DNA from: a virus
Length of the DNA stretch: 42,818 nt
Strand: one strand, 5' to 3'
IMG/VR virus record: IMGVR_UViG_3300046000_007924
Span: 1-42,818 of that record
Every line of letters starts with the position of its first letter. Within the stretch, counting starts at the first letter, position 1. The notes below the pieces were generated by a model. That model was not told the origin of the DNA. It did not search any database and worked only from the letters and a program-made list of their open reading frames with translations. Shown one piece after another: positions 1 to 5,329 of the stretch. The position numbers were made by a program, and so were the translations under genes.

Positions 1-1
1 T

Positions 2-340
2 CTTAAAAAAGTTTTGGCTGAATGTTTTGAAATTGCAGAACCAACTAGAATGAAACATCCAGATGGTACGCCTTATACAAATGAAGAAATGTATGAAGCA
101 AATGCTGCTAATGAATTTACAGTGATGATTGGAAAAGAAATTCATGCTGAAATTTTAGCAAATGGTCGTCCTTCTCCTGCAAAATTGCGTAATGCAATGT
201 CAAACCCACATACATGGAATGCATTGCAACAAATTGGATTAATTCCAGAAAATGCTCAAGTTTTGATTGGAAGTGTTGACCCACTTAAAATCGAATTCAC
301 GGTGCCTCCTGTGGCACAACAACAATTGGAGAACAACTAA
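2..340 (+). CDS. Hypothetical protein, 5' end cut by window edge
   Basis: The frame is open from the first complete codon at position 2 to the TAA at 338-340. There is no ATG before the conserved-looking sequence, so the true start most likely lies upstream of the window; a TTG at 14 is a possible but unconvincing start. The visible 112 residues are soluble and mixed alpha/beta in appearance, with a Gln/Asn-rich C terminus (VAQQQLENN). No family was recognised. The stop overlaps the ATG of the next gene (TAATG), so the two are probably translationally coupled members of one operon. Confidence 0.7.
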   Translation, partial: LKKVLAECFEIAEPTRMKHPDGTPYTNEEMYEANAANEFTVMIGKEIHAEILANGRPSPAKLRNAMSNPHTWNALQQIGLIPENAQVLIGSVDPLKIEFTVPPVAQQQLENN

Positions 341-747
341 TGTTTTATCTTTGCACAGTAGAGTCTAGTAATTTGTCAACAGTTTTTGGTGGGCCTACAA
401 CACCTATGGGAGATAATATTCCACCAAAATATACAGACTTGCAAGTTGTTATGATTGGCCAAAAACCTGATGCTTCAGGTTACCTTTTAATGGCTGATAC
501 TGTGGTTGAAGAATTTGTAAAACAAGATTCTGTTCCTGAAGGTTATGACTTCATCTTTAGACAATCATGGGGTCTAACAATCAATGAGTCCATCATTCAT
601 AGAGTTATTGAAACACTCAGAGCAGAATCATATCCTCCAATGGCTGATTATTTGGATGCCATCGTCAAGGGTGATGATACACAAAAACAAAAATACCTAG
701 ACGCTTGCCAAGCCGTAAAGGTAAAATATCCAAAGTTTTCTTTCTAA
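340..747 (+). CDS. Hypothetical phage protein, 135 aa
   Basis: The ATG overlaps the stop codon of the upstream gene by one base, typical of a phage operon. The protein is soluble with no signal peptide or membrane segment. The C-terminal third (about residues 90-135) contains YPPMADYLDAIVKGD and ends in YPKFSF. That style of Tyr-Pro-Pro...Asp-Tyr-Leu-Asp helix is common in small tail-assembly or fibre-associated phage proteins, but this is only a resemblance. No specific family is claimed. It is the last gene before a sigma-70-type promoter, so it probably ends the upstream transcription unit. Confidence 0.65.
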   Translation: MFYLCTVESSNLSTVFGGPTTPMGDNIPPKYTDLQVVMIGQKPDASGYLLMADTVVEEFVKQDSVPEGYDFIFRQSWGLTINESIIHRVIETLRAESYPPMADYLDAIVKGDDTQKQKYLDACQAVKVKYPKFSF

Positions 748-762
748 TATACCAAATTAGAC

Positions 763-791
763 TTGACAAACAAACTTTTTTGTGATATAAT
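763..791 (+). promoter_or_regulatory. Consensus sigma-70-type promoter
   Basis: TTGACA at 763-768 is followed, after exactly 17 bases, by TATAAT at 786-791. Both hexamers match the bacterial housekeeping consensus 6/6. The predicted start is near 798, immediately before the 10-bp closing stem of the structured RNA at 800-891. A perfect promoter recognised by unmodified host RNA polymerase would make the island (RNA, HNH gene, tmRNA, secreted protein) transcribable early, or independently of phage late factors. The perfect spacing and the RNA starting right behind it argue against chance, even in AT-rich DNA. Confidence 0.8.
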
Positions 792-799
792 ATATACTT

Positions 800-895
800 A
801 ACACACTTATGAACTGGGACACGGTTAACCGTGCAATTAGACTAAGTTCCCACTCTGTGGGTACGGGAGTGAGAATCTCCCTAAGTGTGTTTTTT
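800..895 (+). ncRNA. Compact cloverleaf-like structured RNA with U-tract end
   Basis: A perfect 10-bp stem (800-809 with 882-891) encloses three arms. A compound arm is closed by 811-815/845-849 and holds the hairpin 820-824/829-833 with a TTAA loop. A hairpin has stem 850-853/857-860 and a 3-nt loop. A 5-bp stem with 7-nt loop (865-869/877-881) abuts the closing stem directly, as a tRNA T-arm abuts its acceptor stem. A run of T (890-895) follows. It sits about 2 nt after the predicted start of a consensus promoter. It is not a canonical tRNA: no CCA, no normal D or anticodon arm, and a T-loop of TGAGAAT. It could be an independent small RNA, a tRNA-derived element, or a leader/attenuator for the tmRNA transcript. 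Confidence 0.55.
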
Positions 896-926
896 ATTGC
901 TGTATTAATTGTTTTAAACGCCTCAA

Positions 927-949
927 CTCCACTAAATACTTGTGGAGGT
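927..949 (+). promoter_or_regulatory. Hairpin occluding the HNH gene ribosome binding site
   Basis: CTCCAC (927-932) pairs with GTGGAG (942-947), a perfect 6-bp stem with a 9-nt loop. The 3' arm contains most of the strong Shine-Dalgarno GGAGGT (944-949) for the ATG at 955, so longer transcripts should translate the endonuclease poorly. The loop carries TAAATACT, which resembles the end of a T4 late promoter (TATAAATA). A start from it would lie near 944 and would remove the 5' arm. T4 I-TevI is known to use such a hairpin with a late promoter inside it; the same role here is inference. Confidence 0.45.
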
Positions 950-954
950 AACAA

Positions 955-1494
955 ATGAAAAAAACGACACTAGTATGTTGTTCCGGTTGTGGAAAACATT
1001 TTGAAAAAGAAACGAAGTATGTAACAGCAGCCATAAAGAAAAGTCGGCCACATTTTTGTACACCTGCTTGTTTAGGTATGTCAAACTTAAAAAAGGGGAA
1101 AGAAAAAATCAATAAATGGAATTATGGAGAAGAAAATAGAAAAAATTTACAAGCACTCAGTAGAAATAGAGCGGATGAGTATACAGGTTTTCGTAATTTA
1201 TTAGCCAGTTGCCATAAACGCAATAAAGATTGTGATTTAGATTTGCCATATTTGAAGGAATTGTGGGAAAAACAAAATGGTAAATGTATAGTAACAAAGG
1301 TTGACTTGGTTCTAAAAACGAACTATAATAAAAATTTTCAAGCATCACTCGATAGAATTGATAGTAATAAAGGTTATATAAAAGGGAATATACGATACAT
1401 AAGTGTATCTGTAAATTGGTTAAAGAATAATTTGGATGATAATCACCTAAGAGAATTTATCCAAATTTGTAATGGTAGTAAACTGATTTTTTGA
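955..1494 (+). CDS. HNH homing-type endonuclease
   Basis: This 179-aa protein is probably a free-standing HNH nuclease that spreads by cutting DNA. The N terminus carries a likely zinc ribbon: Cys9-x2-Cys12 and Cys35-x3-Cys39. The C-terminal half has the phage HNH signature ASLDRIDSNKGYIKGN followed by IRYISVSVNWLK, with CIVTK just before it. GGAGGT lies 5 nt before the ATG and is tucked into a hairpin. The stop TGA (1492-1494) lies inside the proposed acceptor half of the tmRNA, so the last codons double as RNA gene. That placement suggests the gene invaded the ssrA locus or specialises on it. No group I intron core was found around it. The target site cannot be read from sequence. Confidence 0.85.
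   Translation: MKKTTLVCCSGCGKHFEKETKYVTAAIKKSRPHFCTPACLGMSNLKKGKEKINKWNYGEENRKNLQALSRNRADEYTGFRNLLASCHKRNKDCDLDLPYLKELWEKQNGKCIVTKVDLVLKTNYNKNFQASLDRIDSNKGYIKGNIRYISVSVNWLKNNLDDNHLREFIQICNGSKLIF
1301..1329 (+). promoter_or_regulatory. Near-consensus sigma-70-type promoter inside the HNH gene
   Basis: TTGACT (5/6) at 1301-1306 and TATAAT (6/6) at 1324-1329 are separated by 17 nt. The predicted start near 1336 is about 140 nt upstream of the first tmRNA helix strand that could be assigned. It could give the tmRNA precursor its own promoter, independent of the one at 763. Lying inside coding sequence in AT-rich DNA, it might also be chance. Confidence 0.45.
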
Positions 1495-1768
1495 AACGAT
1501 GGCGACAAGAGGGTTCGACTCCCTCCATCTCCACCATAAGCATATTAGATACATCGGTGTTATTTAACGGCATCGATCACTGAGAACTAATATGCTTATG
1601 ATGGGGATGATACGGCAATCGACCGACATATGAGTAAACTAATTGGCTACCCGACACAGATAGTCGTAAAAAGTAAAAAAACGTAAATGCAAACGACTCC
1701 GCATATCGCCTAGCTGCTTAAGCTAAGCTGAGGTTTCGCCAACTGTCCTTATTATCCAATCAGTTGGC
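1474..1768 (+). ncRNA. ssrA: Circularly permuted (two-piece) tmRNA
   Basis: tmRNA rescues stalled ribosomes and adds a degradation tag. Here the 3' (acceptor) half precedes the 5' (coding) half. Acceptor half: T-arm GAGGG-TTCGACT-CCCTC at 1509-1525, acceptor strand CATCTCC 1526-1532, discriminator A1533, encoded CCA 1534-1536. Coding half: GGGGATG at 1603-1609 pairs with 1526-1532 over 7 bp and includes a G3-U70-type wobble (1605/1530), the alanyl-tRNA synthetase identity element. Next come a reduced D-loop region with AATCGAC and the reading frame GCA AAC GAC TCC GCA TAT CGC CTA GCT GCT TAA (1689-1721), coding ANDSAYRLAA. Probable P2 is 1624-1629 with 1499-1504 (one mismatch), placed as in standard tmRNA between the D region and the T-arm. 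A possible further helix is 1646-1651/1474-1479. The outer ends are uncertain. Confidence 0.9.
1537..1602 (+). other. ssrA: Intervening segment joining the tmRNA acceptor and coding halves
   Basis: A 66-nt segment lies between the encoded CCA and the GGGG that begins the coding half. Its ends, 1537-1547 and 1588-1598, form a perfect 11-bp inverted repeat that continues the acceptor stem outward, giving one long hairpin in the precursor. In known permuted tmRNAs such a loop is cut out by tRNA-type processing enzymes to leave two pieces. Here the processing is inferred. The perfect pairing supports a functional precursor. Confidence 0.8.
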
Positions 1769-1776
1769 ATTTTGTT
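1738..1776 (+). terminator. Hairpin at the 3' end of the tmRNA coding half
   Basis: GCCAACTG (1738-1745) pairs perfectly with CAGTTGGC (1761-1768) around a 15-nt loop. It is followed by ATTTTGTT, a weak U-tract. It may be the 3'-terminal helix of the coding piece, a processing signal, or a leaky terminator. The next gene's Shine-Dalgarno begins about 15 nt further on and no promoter is seen between, so read-through is likely. Confidence 0.4.
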
Positions 1777-1795
1777 CAACAACAGGAGAAAAACT

Positions 1796-2230
1796 TTGAT
1801 TAAGAAACTCGTATTAGTAGCAGCACTTATTAGTGCAGGTATGGCGCAAGCTGTAGAAGTTGGTGTTACCAGTGGTAACAATTTTTCCAAGCAAGAAAAT
1901 GTTTGGGGTGTAACAGTAGGAACTCAAGTAAGAGCTCTTGATGTGACCGGTGGTTTTGCACGTAATGCATCTTCAGACACTCTTAGTGTTTTGGGTGCAA
2001 AAGATGTTGCAAAATTTGGTCCCGCAACTGTTGCAGTAAAAGCTGGTGTAGCTTACGTAGATACTAAAGTTAATCCTGATGGATATGCGCTTATTGTTGG
2101 TGCAGGTGCAAGTATGCCTATTACTAAGAAAGTGTCTGCAACACTAGATTACAGCTATCAAGCTGGTGAAAGCAAAGTTAGTTCACAAGACGGTAATCGT
2201 CTAACTGCTGGACTTAAATACAGCTTCTAA
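1796..2230 (+). CDS. Small exported outer-membrane beta-barrel-like protein
   Basis: The start chosen is TTG at 1796, because a CAGGAG Shine-Dalgarno (1783-1788) lies 7 nt upstream and the protein then begins with a textbook signal peptide: IKK, a hydrophobic stretch, and the AQA signal peptidase I site at residues 17-19. An earlier in-frame TTG at 1772 has no such support. The mature part (about 125 aa) shows alternating polar and hydrophobic residues with Gly-rich turns, and ends in LKYSF. A terminal Phe is typical of outer-membrane barrel proteins. No family was assigned. It shares a transcription unit with the tmRNA and ends at its own terminator. A role in altering the host surface, for example blocking superinfection, is a guess. 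Confidence 0.75.
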   Translation: MIKKLVLVAALISAGMAQAVEVGVTSGNNFSKQENVWGVTVGTQVRALDVTGGFARNASSDTLSVLGAKDVAKFGPATVAVKAGVAYVDTKVNPDGYALIVGAGASMPITKKVSATLDYSYQAGESKVSSQDGNRLTAGLKYSF

Positions 2231-2245
2231 AGTTGTGTAGGTTTT

Positions 2246-2286
2246 GGTAGGTTTACCAGCGTAGCAAAATAACCTACCATTTTTTT
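2246..2286 (+). terminator. Rho-independent terminator
   Basis: GGTAGGTT (2246-2253) pairs perfectly with AACCTACC (2271-2278), an 8-bp stem with a 17-nt loop, followed by A and seven T (2280-2286). It closes the tmRNA/secreted-protein unit, 16 nt after its last stop codon. Confidence 0.75.
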
Positions 2287-2299
2287 CGAAAGGAAACCC

Positions 2300-2851
2300 A
2301 TGCGAAGTAGAGCAATACTTTTCAGCATAGTAGTTTCCGCAATAGTTCTTTGTCTCTCAATGATAAACATTAATTTTAGGATCCCTCTAAAAGCGGATTA
2401 TCAAAATCTAACAGAGGCAACAAAAAGGCAGGTAACATGCCTTGCAGAGAACATTTACTTTGAGGCAGGACATGAACCAGATAAAGGTAAGCAAGCTGTT
2501 GCTTTTGTTACCATTAATCGCGTTCAAGCCGGTTACAGTAAAGACATTTGCGGAGTAGTCCATCAAAAAACAGGAGAGACTTGTCAGTTTTCTTGGTTGT
2601 GTGATAAAAAGATTACCGATAAACGCTTGACAATCAAAGACACTATGTTATATAATGAAGTTCGTGAGTTGGCAATTGACATGATTCTAAATCGTGAGCT
2701 CAAGGAAGATGTTACAGAAGGTGCAACATACTACCATGCCGACTATATTAATCCACATTGGAATTTGGAAAAGGTGAAACAAATTGGAAGACACATATTC
2801 TACCGAAGCGGAAAAGACAAAATTGACAAAAACAGGAGTTACTATGAATAA
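2300..2851 (+). CDS. SleB-type cell wall hydrolase (endolysin) with N-terminal anchor
   Basis: This 183-aa protein belongs to the SleB/Hydrolase_2 family of peptidoglycan hydrolases. Residues 5-26 form a single hydrophobic segment (signal peptide or signal anchor) that would carry the enzyme across the inner membrane without a holin pore. The catalytic domain follows: AENIYFEAGHEP at 49-60, with Glu55 the likely catalytic acid, then AVAFVTINRV (66-75) and CQFSWLCD (95-102). GAAAGGA precedes the ATG. The stop overlaps the start of the next small membrane protein by 8 nt, so the pair probably forms a lysis cassette. Whether the N-terminal segment is cleaved or retained (SAR endolysin) is not decidable here. 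Confidence 0.85.
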   Translation: MRSRAILFSIVVSAIVLCLSMININFRIPLKADYQNLTEATKRQVTCLAENIYFEAGHEPDKGKQAVAFVTINRVQAGYSKDICGVVHQKTGETCQFSWLCDKKITDKRLTIKDTMLYNEVRELAIDMILNRELKEDVTEGATYYHADYINPHWNLEKVKQIGRHIFYRSGKDKIDKNRSYYE

Positions 2852-3059
2852 AGAATTCATTACTATGATTGTATGCTGCACTATTCTGATAGGTTCAATG
2901 GTTGCGGGTGCAACTATCTATCAAATTAATGAACGAAACAATTTTGCAAAGAACATGGAATCAGCCATTATGAAAGGTGTTGATCCATTGTCTGTAAAAT
3001 GTTCTTATGAACAAACTCCTACTGCTACTTGCATCACATATTCTATGGGTAAACGTTAA
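2844..3059 (+). CDS. Small single-pass membrane protein
   Basis: The start is set at ATG 2844, preceded by AGGAG; the longer reading frame upstream only overlaps the hydrolase. The 71-aa product has one transmembrane segment (about residues 5-27) and then a soluble part with GVDPLSVKCSYEQ and two further cysteines. It overlaps the hydrolase gene by 8 nt and its last base is the A of the next ATG, so translation is coupled on both sides. Similar small membrane proteins seem common beside lysis genes in marine T4-like phages, as I recall. A holin or spanin-like lysis role is possible but unproven. Confidence 0.7.
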   Translation: MNKEFITMIVCCTILIGSMVAGATIYQINERNNFAKNMESAIMKGVDPLSVKCSYEQTPTATCITYSMGKR

Positions 3060-3280
3060 TGCCTACTCGTGAAGAAATTTCAGAATTTAGTGCCAGTATT
3101 ATAAAGGCTGCTGATGAAACTCGGCACACATGCATGGACACTATAATTGAATATTGTGAGAAAACTGGTATTGAGGTAGAGATTGCAGCAACGTTGATTT
3201 CCGCACATCTTAAATCTCGTATCCGTGAAGAAGCACAATCTGTTAATCTTATCAAGAGGTCGGCCAAACTCCCATTATGA
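3059..3280 (+). CDS. 33: Late-transcription coactivator (T4 gp33-like)
   Basis: The 73-aa sequence fits the small phage late-transcription coactivator family. It opens with MPTREEISEFS, has a central helix with CEKTGIEVEIAA, and ends in SAKLPL. In T4, gp33 bridges host RNA polymerase (beta flap) and the sliding clamp, so that gp55-programmed polymerase fires TATAAATA late promoters on replicating DNA. T4 gp33 is 112 aa; the shorter form is usual in cyanophage-like relatives. The gene is coupled to both neighbours (TAATG before, ATGA after). Its place directly before the gp59 gene matches the T4 order 33-59-32. The late promoter-like elements listed here are its expected targets. Confidence 0.85.
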   Translation: MPTREEISEFSASIIKAADETRHTCMDTIIEYCEKTGIEVEIAATLISAHLKSRIREEAQSVNLIKRSAKLPL

Positions 3281-3882
3281 ATGAAGGTACAGGCTTTGCG
3301 GCCTTTGCGTTATATAATGCGTTGAAGTTACATTTTACGTCCAGTTCCTATGACTACATTAAGTATCATGGGAAAACAAATGTGAGCAAAGATACTTTTC
3401 TCCGTCGTAAGGACAAATATTCCTTCTATCGGTTATCACGCAAATACTCGTTGGATGAACTCAGGGACTTCTACGTGGCCAATTTCATATACGGAGACTC
3501 AACTTGGGTTGGTGAAATGACTGGACCGAATGGAGAAGAAGTATATAAAAAGTGGCAAAAGATTAACCAGAGCTTGACTTATCGTTTTGAATCTGATATA
3601 GTACGAATCATGGAACAGGTTAATAAACCTGATGACTTGATAAAGGTACCGGCTCAGGGCCATCCGTTTTTATTGATGGCTGCAATGCAGAATGATATTT
3701 GTATTGAAACATTGGTGATACTAAATGATATTATTAAATTCTTTTCTATGTGGGACAAAAAAATAAGTGAAGATATTATATGGCCCTCATGGAAATTGAA
3801 ATGTGAAAAGTACACACCATTCGTTACATACGATAAGGTTAAGTTTAAGAATATACTAAAAGAGGCAATTACAAATGAGTAA
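3277..3882 (+). CDS. 59: DNA helicase loader (T4 gp59-like)
   Basis: The 201-aa product matches the gp59 family that loads the gp41 replicative helicase onto gp32-coated forked DNA. T4 gp59 is 217 aa. Diagnostic features are the N-terminal half with YDYIKYHGKTNVS, the basic stretch FLRRKDKYSFYRLSRKYS, and LRDFYVANFI, which align in order with T4 gp59 (YDVIKYNW, KRRDKYFFQKLSEKY). The C-terminal half carries WPSWKLKCEKY. The ATG overlaps the gp33 stop (ATGA). Its 3' end overlaps the nucleotidase gene by 8 nt. Presence with gp32 and gp33 points to T4-type recombination-coupled replication. Confidence 0.88.
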   Translation: MNEGTGFAAFALYNALKLHFTSSSYDYIKYHGKTNVSKDTFLRRKDKYSFYRLSRKYSLDELRDFYVANFIYGDSTWVGEMTGPNGEEVYKKWQKINQSLTYRFESDIVRIMEQVNKPDDLIKVPAQGHPFLLMAAMQNDICIETLVILNDIIKFFSMWDKKISEDIIWPSWKLKCEKYTPFVTYDKVKFKNILKEAITNE

Positions 3883-4366
3883 ATATACAAAAATATACTT
3901 AGATTTAGACGGCGTGATTGCTGACTTTTCCAAACGTTATAAAGAAATGTTCCATATCACACCTCAAGAGGCTGATAGAAATCGTAATTTTGGTAGTTAC
4001 TTTAACACCTTTATTGAGAATAAGCAATTTGCAAGCCTCGACATGATGACTGATGCAAGGATGCTTTTGGATCACTTGAACACATTAGATGTTCCTGTAG
4101 AGATTCTTTCTTCTACAGCAAGACAAGAATCTCATGTGGATATTTCAGACCAAAAAAGAGTTTGGTTGATTTCCCACGGTATCAACTATACACGCAATTT
4201 TGTGCCAGGTAAAAACCTAAAGTACACCTTTGCGACACCAGAATCCATTATCATTGATGACACACTTTCTGTTATCAGTGACTGGGTTGAAGCAGGTGGT
4301 ACAGCAATTCATCATACGGATGCTGCATCTACTATTGCTTCACTAGACGCTTTATTGCGTGTATAA
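3875..4366 (+). CDS. HAD-family 5'(3')-deoxyribonucleotidase
   Basis: The 163-aa protein has the HAD phosphatase motifs in order: YLDLDGVIADF with nucleophile Asp10 and acid/base Asp12, EILSST (76-81) as motif II, Lys94 as the likely motif III lysine, and IIIDDT (125-130) as the metal-binding motif IV. This is the NT5C-type group that dephosphorylates (deoxy)nucleoside monophosphates. In a phage it would adjust nucleotide pools, for example removing unwanted dNMPs after host DNA breakdown. The gene is inserted between 59 and 32, which are adjacent in T4. Its TAA stop lies inside a perfect TATAAATA element. Substrate preference cannot be told from sequence. Confidence 0.85.
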   Translation: MSKYTKIYLDLDGVIADFSKRYKEMFHITPQEADRNRNFGSYFNTFIENKQFASLDMMTDARMLLDHLNTLDVPVEILSSTARQESHVDISDQKRVWLISHGINYTRNFVPGKNLKYTFATPESIIIDDTLSVISDWVEAGGTAIHHTDAASTIASLDALLRV

Positions 4367-4441: not shown

Positions 4442-5329
4442 ATGGCAGATTTCGCAAATCTCAAACGCTCTTCGGGCAATCTCGACAAACTCTCCAAAGC
4501 TATCGAAGCTTTGAATACAACAGAGGGTTCTGACAATAAAGACAATTACTGGAAACCAGAAGTAGATAAGGCTGGTAACGGCATGGCTACTATCCGTTTT
4601 CTTCCAGCACCAGCTGTCGATGGTGATGACGCACTTCCGTGGGTCAAAATTTTCTCTCACGGCTTTCAAGGTCCTGGTGGTTGGCTTATTGACAACTGCT
4701 TGACTACAAAGAATCAACAATGTCCTGTGTGTGAACACAATTCAGGCTTGTGGAACTCAGGTATTGAAGCCAACAAAGAAGTTGTACGTAAACAAAAGCG
4801 TAAACTTAATTATCTCGCAAACATCTATATCGTTTCGGATCCAAAACATCCAGAAAACGAAGGACAAATCAAATTGTTCCGTTTCGGTAAGAAAATCTTT
4901 GACAAGATTACTGAAGCAATGAATCCACAATTTGAAGATGAACAAGCAATCAATCCGTTTGACCTATGGGGTGGTGCTAACTTCAAGTTAAAGATTCGTA
5001 AAGTTGAGGGTTACCAAAACTATGACAAGTCCGAATTTGAATCAGCTTCACCGTTGTCAACTGATGATGCTAAACTTGAAAAGATTTGGAAAGCAGAACA
5101 CTCTTTGAAAGAGTTGACTGGTGACAAGGAATTCAAGACATATGATGAATTGAAAACTCGTCTAGACCGTGTTCTTGGTTTGAATGGTGAAACTATTAAA
5201 CCTAAGACTACTGTTGAACAAATGCGAACAACACCTGAAGCATTCAAACCTAAGGCAGCTGAACCTGAATTAGCAATGGGTGATGATGACGATATGGCCT
5301 ATTTTGCAAAGTTGGCTGAAGAAGATTAA
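4442..5329 (+). CDS. 32: Single-stranded DNA-binding protein (T4 gp32-like)
   Basis: The 295-aa product is close to T4 gp32 (301 aa), which coats ssDNA during replication, recombination and repair. The basic N terminus with LKRSSGN (7-13) corresponds to the Lys-Arg-Ser cooperative-binding (LAST) motif. The OB-fold core includes MATIRFLPAP (48-57). The zinc ligands are His73, Cys86, Cys94 and Cys97, spaced as in T4 (His-x12-Cys, then Cys-x2-Cys). The tail is acidic (GDDDDMAYFAKLAEED), the part that in T4 recruits gp59 and other partners. AAAGGA precedes the ATG. The gene stands alone between a late promoter and a strong terminator, which suits its high expression. Confidence 0.93.
   Translation: MADFANLKRSSGNLDKLSKAIEALNTTEGSDNKDNYWKPEVDKAGNGMATIRFLPAPAVDGDDALPWVKIFSHGFQGPGGWLIDNCLTTKNQQCPVCEHNSGLWNSGIEANKEVVRKQKRKLNYLANIYIVSDPKHPENEGQIKLFRFGKKIFDKITEAMNPQFEDEQAINPFDLWGGANFKLKIRKVEGYQNYDKSEFESASPLSTDDAKLEKIWKAEHSLKELTGDKEFKTYDELKTRLDRVLGLNGETIKPKTTVEQMRTTPEAFKPKAAEPELAMGDDDDMAYFAKLAEED

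Follow-up and report, generated by a model that had tools for sequence, protein, structure and literature searches.

A circularly permuted two-piece tmRNA gene of beta-like type in a T4-like phage and its relatives

A 42.8-kb linear fragment from an uncultured virus (IMG/VR), analyzed here over its whole length of 42,818 nucleotides and referred to as the window, raises the question of whether a T4-like phage encodes a tmRNA made of two pieces and what such an RNA would do during infection. Protein family searches identify the window as T4-like through matches to the gp33, gp59, gp32, tail tube, baseplate hub and wedge families, and the nearest named relatives of its gp32-like protein are found in T4-like cyanophages and Pelagibacter phage Mosig. 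A sequence-only reading had proposed that a permuted two-piece tmRNA is carried in this setting. This proposal is borne out by covariance models, ARAGORN, covariation and synteny, which together identify positions 1474-1768 as a circularly permuted tmRNA gene and rule out a chance resemblance (Table 1).

Identity and parts of the permuted gene

ARAGORN reported a tmRNA* at 1444-1812 with the tag ANDSAYRLAA. The covariance search called for by the sequence-only reading returned a significant match to RF04321 (tmRNA_permuted) of 96.4 bits (E=1.3e-17), exceeding the gathering score of 47, in which the full-length model (1-213) aligns to 1474-1721 and covers both halves of the gene. Under permissive settings, RF01850 (beta_tmRNA) matched 1419-1778 with 79.7 bits and was the top scorer among the three clade-specific permuted models; two further matches from that clan, which overlapped it with lower scores, were discarded, so no other clade-specific model beat it. 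Since 79.7 bits lies below the RF01850 gathering score of 84, we call the gene beta-like and do not file it as a member of beta_tmRNA.

The predicted order, with the acceptor half preceding the coding half, was confirmed as 1474-1536, 1537-1602 and 1603-1768. All seven pairs of the anticipated 7-bp acceptor stem form, including the G3.U70 wobble. A perfect stem does extend the acceptor stem, as had been suggested, but it measures 12 bp and not 11. The expected frame with an LAA-type end is also present and reads GCA AAC GAC TCC GCA TAT CGC CTA GCT GCT TAA. The intervening segment of the window is without an open reading frame, as determined by ORF scan.

Table 1. Coordinates of the tmRNA gene, its parts and neighboring genes in the window.
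Feature	Position	Strand	Evidence or remark
HNH / endonuclease VII-like ORF, 179 aa	955..1494	+	PHROG 3322 E=1.8e-20
Acceptor piece	1474..1536	+	RF04321 alignment, coordinates, covariation; 1474 is the P2 strand start, not a mapped mature 5' end
P2 5' strand GGTAG	1474-1478	+	
T-arm GAGGG-TTCGACT-CCCTC	1509-1525	+	
Acceptor 3' strand CATCTCC	1526-1532	+	
Discriminator A; CCA	1533; 1534-1536	+	
Intervening segment (ITS/IVS), 66 nt, expected to be excised	1537..1602	+	Stem permutations, covariation, ORF scan
Intervening-segment stem TAAGCATATTAG / CTAATATGCTTA	1537-1548 / 1587-1598		12 bp, perfect; continues acceptor stem
Conserved UGAU	1599-1602	+	Just 5' of coding piece
Coding piece	1603..1768	+	ARAGORN, Rfam, covariation; 3' end approximate
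Acceptor 5' strand GGGGATG	1603-1609	+	
D-loop-like ATCGA	within 1603..1768	+	
P2 3' strand CTACC	1647-1651	+	
PK1 stem CGAC/GTCG	1652-1655/1663-1666	+	
Tag frame ANDSAYRLAA + TAA	1689..1721	+	ARAGORN, sequence
3' hairpin CCAACTG/CAGTTGG	1739-1745/1761-1767	+	
YfaZ-like outer-membrane protein	1797..2230	+	PF07437 E=2.8e-7; directly 3' of tmRNA
Cell-wall hydrolase / endolysin	2300..2851	+	PF07486 E=1.5e-20
gp33-like late-transcription coactivator	3059..3280	+	PF16805 E=6e-14; phrog_254
gp59-like helicase loader	3277..3882	+	phrog_269 E=1.7e-59
gp32-like single-strand DNA-binding protein	4442..5329	+	phrog_224 E=7e-109

The gene lies between the HNH-like ORF and the YfaZ-like gene, followed by the endolysin gene, a small ORF, gp33, gp59 and gp32. 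The 3' end of the HNH-like ORF overlaps the start of the acceptor piece by about 20 nt. This ORF, possibly a mobile endonuclease adjoining the tmRNA, occurs beside the tmRNA in only one relative, which is near-identical to the window (L125). The YfaZ-like ORF likely starts at TTG 1797, after AGGAG. No T4 late promoter TATAAATA was found near the tmRNA, the closest exact match on the + strand being at 4362. A glutamine riboswitch adjoining the tmRNA, as claimed for phage Melnitz, had no Rfam match in window positions 1-4000 at E<=1. When named phages were searched at the nucleotide level, only the T-arm/acceptor stretch matched.

Synteny, covariation and mosaicism among related phages

We gathered relatives using the gp59 protein as query, which yielded 80 viral contigs, 54 of them with at least 2.6 kb upstream of gp59. 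A permuted tmRNA gene was found upstream of gp59 on the same strand in 51 of these 54. All 13 loci tested with the complete set of Rfam models were permuted, and the beta model scores best on the relatives of the window, many exceeding the cut-off of 84 and one reaching 134.1 bits (L144). Relatives retain a tag with LAA or a close variant at its end, and differ in its inner residues. No SmpB was found in 16 related phage records, so for these phages host SmpB would have to serve.

A structural alignment of 31 relatives, including window positions 1468-1777, revealed covarying changes among related phages, whose absence the sequence-only reading would have counted against itself: both sides have changed in 30 of 40 pairs. 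The six helices named from the window are paired in 90.8% of cells, compared with 69.5% in shuffles (0/500) and 37-45% in slid controls; these percentages are biased upwards because the structure was drawn partly from the window itself, a bias that leaves the compensatory changes unexplained. The T-stem and acceptor stem are paired in 100% of cells. G3.U70 is invariant in all 31 sequences while pairs 4-6 vary compensatorily; a separate count of 130/130 for G3.U70 was set aside, being forced by the search anchor. Covariation is seen in the intervening-segment stem, T-stem, P2, PK1 and 3' hairpin alike. For P2, the pairing taken from the window holds in only 64% of cells, chiefly owing to shifts in the alignment, where its versions can be seen by eye (GGTAG/CTACC, GATAG/CTATC, GCTGT/ACAGC and GTTGT/ACAAC). 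In a set of 33 distinct intervening segments, 10.7 of 12 positions pair between the two ends, against a maximum of 8.3 in 2000 re-pairings among sequences.

Comparison of sequences further indicates that the tmRNA genes of related phages are mosaic, with the T-arm/P2, the acceptor stem plus intervening hairpin, PK1 and the tag each having different relatives. A near-identical module beside a widely diverged next module is a direct sign of this organization. The tmRNA of L134 is nearly that of the window (98% and 96%), yet its gp59 is 85% identical. L131 and L136 both have the tag half of the window (97%), and differ from it in T-arm, acceptor stem and PK1. Compared with each other, these two are alike in T-arm (98%) and PK1 (95%), but their acceptor stems differ and their intervening segments are unrelated. 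Trees of the 5' modules and of the tag module reject each other, with log-likelihood differences of 552 and 448 (AU p=4e-47 and 2e-5), a conflict to which model misfit contributes given the shortness of the module segments. Assembly chimeras are not fully excluded as a source of mosaic genes; the L131-type gene recurs in three metagenome contigs and the L136-type in two. Permutation places both strands of the acceptor stem side by side, which suggests that they can move together as one swappable block.

Small protein genes in the intervening segment of relatives

In several relatives, an AAGGA Shine-Dalgarno sequence directly follows CCA and precedes an ATG and an open reading frame that ends at a UGA before the coding piece. 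Such nested ORFs, absent from the window, occur in dozens of relatives (L130, L135, L136, L159, L170, L199, L339, L344, L349, L354, L368, L374, L376, L384, L400 and others). In the gp59 set, which was not picked for nested ORFs, 6 of 35 distinct segments of at least 60 nt qualify. A scan for TCCACCAWAAGGA...ATG, thus conditioned on the Shine-Dalgarno sequence and the ATG, gave an ORF that spans at least 20 aa and stops no more than 15 nt from the segment end in 34 of 45 cases, with 4.7 expected when the interior was shuffled. Replacing AAGGA by AAGCA gave 0/8, a control whose scoring itself needs the Shine-Dalgarno sequence and which chiefly shows the AAGGA sites to be more than incidental.

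Nested ORFs group into families in which dN is well below dS in most pairs (dN/dS of 0.083/0.643, 0.127/0.998 and 0.019/1.318, for example); this was not seen for the L170/L172 pair, which has two changes. Judging by these substitution patterns, the nested small protein genes of phage relatives are under purifying selection. Single-span membrane-like proteins are common among the products, and one 86-aa protein matches PF03692 (CxxCxxCC, E=1.3e-6). A homologue of a 62-aa family is annotated in Melnitz as a free-standing CDS directly upstream of the tmRNA (59% identity), and homologues of other cargo proteins lie just upstream of the tmRNA in L042, L027, L051 and L093. For several cargo proteins, named phages contained no match.

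Structure prediction places the Shine-Dalgarno core within the stem in nearly every case (mean unpaired probability of 0.07), and the nested ORF generally stops at the UGA that belongs to the conserved UGAU. From these two positions we infer that nested-ORF translation would compete with tmRNA maturation. Taken jointly, these data make it probable that the intervening segment is a slot for small protein genes, with AAGGA in the 5' strand of the stem and UGA as stop, in which translation and folding or processing would compete, with modules that swap between phages and with the window as a cargo-free example. The intervening segments of 34 sampled bacterial permuted tmRNAs range from 4 to 115 nt (median about 26), and none holds a nested ORF of the phage type. 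In Melnitz (L592, 4305 onward), the 142-nt intervening segment has an unannotated ORF, MFKWLSKTRLVVITRDYF..., which is preceded by GGAG and extends into the coding piece.

Proposed function and relation to known tmRNAs

We consider it very likely that the window encodes a circularly permuted two-piece tmRNA, nearest in type to the betaproteobacterial class, that acts in the rescue of stalled ribosomes. The gene, its architecture, covariation and synteny are observed directly; processing, charging, tagging and benefit to the phage would follow established tmRNA biology. In the folded transcript, the acceptor and coding halves would jointly build a single tRNA-like domain, and the intervening segment would protrude from the acceptor stem as a long hairpin. 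Host enzymes would then excise this 66-nt hairpin, through RNase P cleavage at G1603 and 3' trimming to the CCA at 1536, leaving two RNAs joined by base pairs. Host alanyl-tRNA synthetase would recognize G3.U70 and, with the assistance of host SmpB, ribosomes stalled on broken mRNAs would be freed and ANDSAYRLAA added for host proteases. The likely benefit is that ribosomes would be kept available in infection, when mRNA is degraded. The RNA may also replace host tmRNA or retag stalled products, as the sequence-only reading had put forward.

A phage might instead deploy such an RNA as a decoy or inhibitor of host trans-translation that binds SmpB, EF-Tu or ribosomes. There is a precedent in the tag-less tmRNA-like RNA of mycobacteriophage DS6A, cited in PMC11915505 as inhibiting host tmRNA, and a phage RNA could titrate host SmpB where, as in the 16 records, no phage SmpB was found. 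However, a decoy would not need a tag, and the full tag frame, stop and LAA end kept across relatives therefore speak against this role, which we regard as quite improbable; the tRNA-like domain, P2, PK1 and 3' hairpin are all maintained as well. It is scarcely credible that the locus is a functionless, degenerate copy of a host tmRNA acquired by chance, as the scar of a recombination or through transduction. According to PMC9004378, ssrA fragments that stem from integration are frequent in phages, but the present gene is intact, covaries, occupies a fixed place in 51/54 relatives and sits in a T4-like replication and late-gene region, with no integrase among the scanned window proteins. As a general account, degeneration is refuted by the covariation in relatives.

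The main benefit could also lie in tagging and degrading particular host or phage proteins, or in recycling amino acids, and not in rescue, an option that is compatible with a working tmRNA and that PMC9004378 puts forward for Melnitz. Selection on the tag could be one reason why tag halves are swapped separately from the tRNA-like half, but tags keep the generic AND...LAA form and no signal of selectivity was found, and we hold this option to be rather unlikely. The view that the window encodes a working tmRNA has its own counterweights, namely the RF01850 score under the cut-off, the HNH overlap and the fragmentary nature of the source.

That a permuted form in a T4-like setting might be undescribed is contradicted by PMC9004378 (2022), which reports two-piece permuted ssrA in the T4-like phages Melnitz and Mosig, counts 53 two-piece tmRNAs in phage genomes, of which 50 are marine or aquatic, and places the tmRNA directly upstream of the late-transcription coactivator. 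The tmRNA of the window thus belongs to a kind already reported in marine phages. In Mosig EXVC030M (Pelagibacter) and Melnitz (Methylophilales), as in the window, the permuted tmRNA lies upstream of a gp33-like coactivator with gp59 and gp32 beyond, and the Mosig record has the same gp33 synteny. In contrast to these phages, the window has YfaZ and endolysin genes between the tmRNA and gp33, and a different tag and intervening segment. The alpha model scores best on Mosig (RF01849, 67.6 bits) and the Melnitz tmRNA is described as alpha-like, whereas the window and its relatives fit the beta model best. What sets the present gene apart from the published cases is its beta-like type, together with its near-constant presence in the lineage. 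The window shares with RF04321 and RF01850 the acceptor-first order, intervening segment, coding half, tag and beta-type 3' domain; it lacks the long terminal hairpin of RF01850, and its 66-nt intervening segment with a 12-bp stem exceeds the bacterial median.

Bacterial permuted tmRNAs also carry extra intervening sequence, and a survey of 97,179 tmRNAs (PMC11915505) reports one tRNA-Ala and one repetitive element inside such sequences. The cargo of phage relatives differs in being a recurrent small protein gene under apparent purifying selection. We found no mention of open reading frames in the main text of PMC11915505. Neither gene mosaicism nor nested protein genes were found in the searched literature, an absence that is no proof of novelty.

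Other RNAs were met along the way. Alcaligenes phage vB_Af_QDWS595 (Schitoviridae; L002 2006-3351) has an unannotated beta-type permuted tmRNA (93.8 bits) in a tRNA cluster, and in Mosig (L001 9367-9574) a manA RNA motif (RF01745, 64 bits) separates two phage genes close to gp32. Several phages and some bacteria (L131, L142, L592 and L594-L596) have tmRNAs with unusual T-loops (TGCGAAT, GGCAGTA); a phage-specific T-loop was rejected, as GGCAGTA-type loops occur in bacterial genes too. Three bacterial permuted-like tmRNAs (L594, L595 and L596), with intervening segments of only 5 nt, were missed by ARAGORN. A T-arm/acceptor motif scan of genome contigs gave mostly non-permuted tmRNAs and other RNAs and did not find the host, and few beta-type genes came up when one bacterial class and one order were searched for related tmRNAs.

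One T4-like phage lineage almost always carries a beta-type permuted tmRNA, and this constancy suggests that ribosome rescue is probably of importance to its members. If the reading of the intervening segment as a gene slot is true, the discarded segment of a permuted tmRNA can host a protein gene, which would make the transcript a dual-use RNA.
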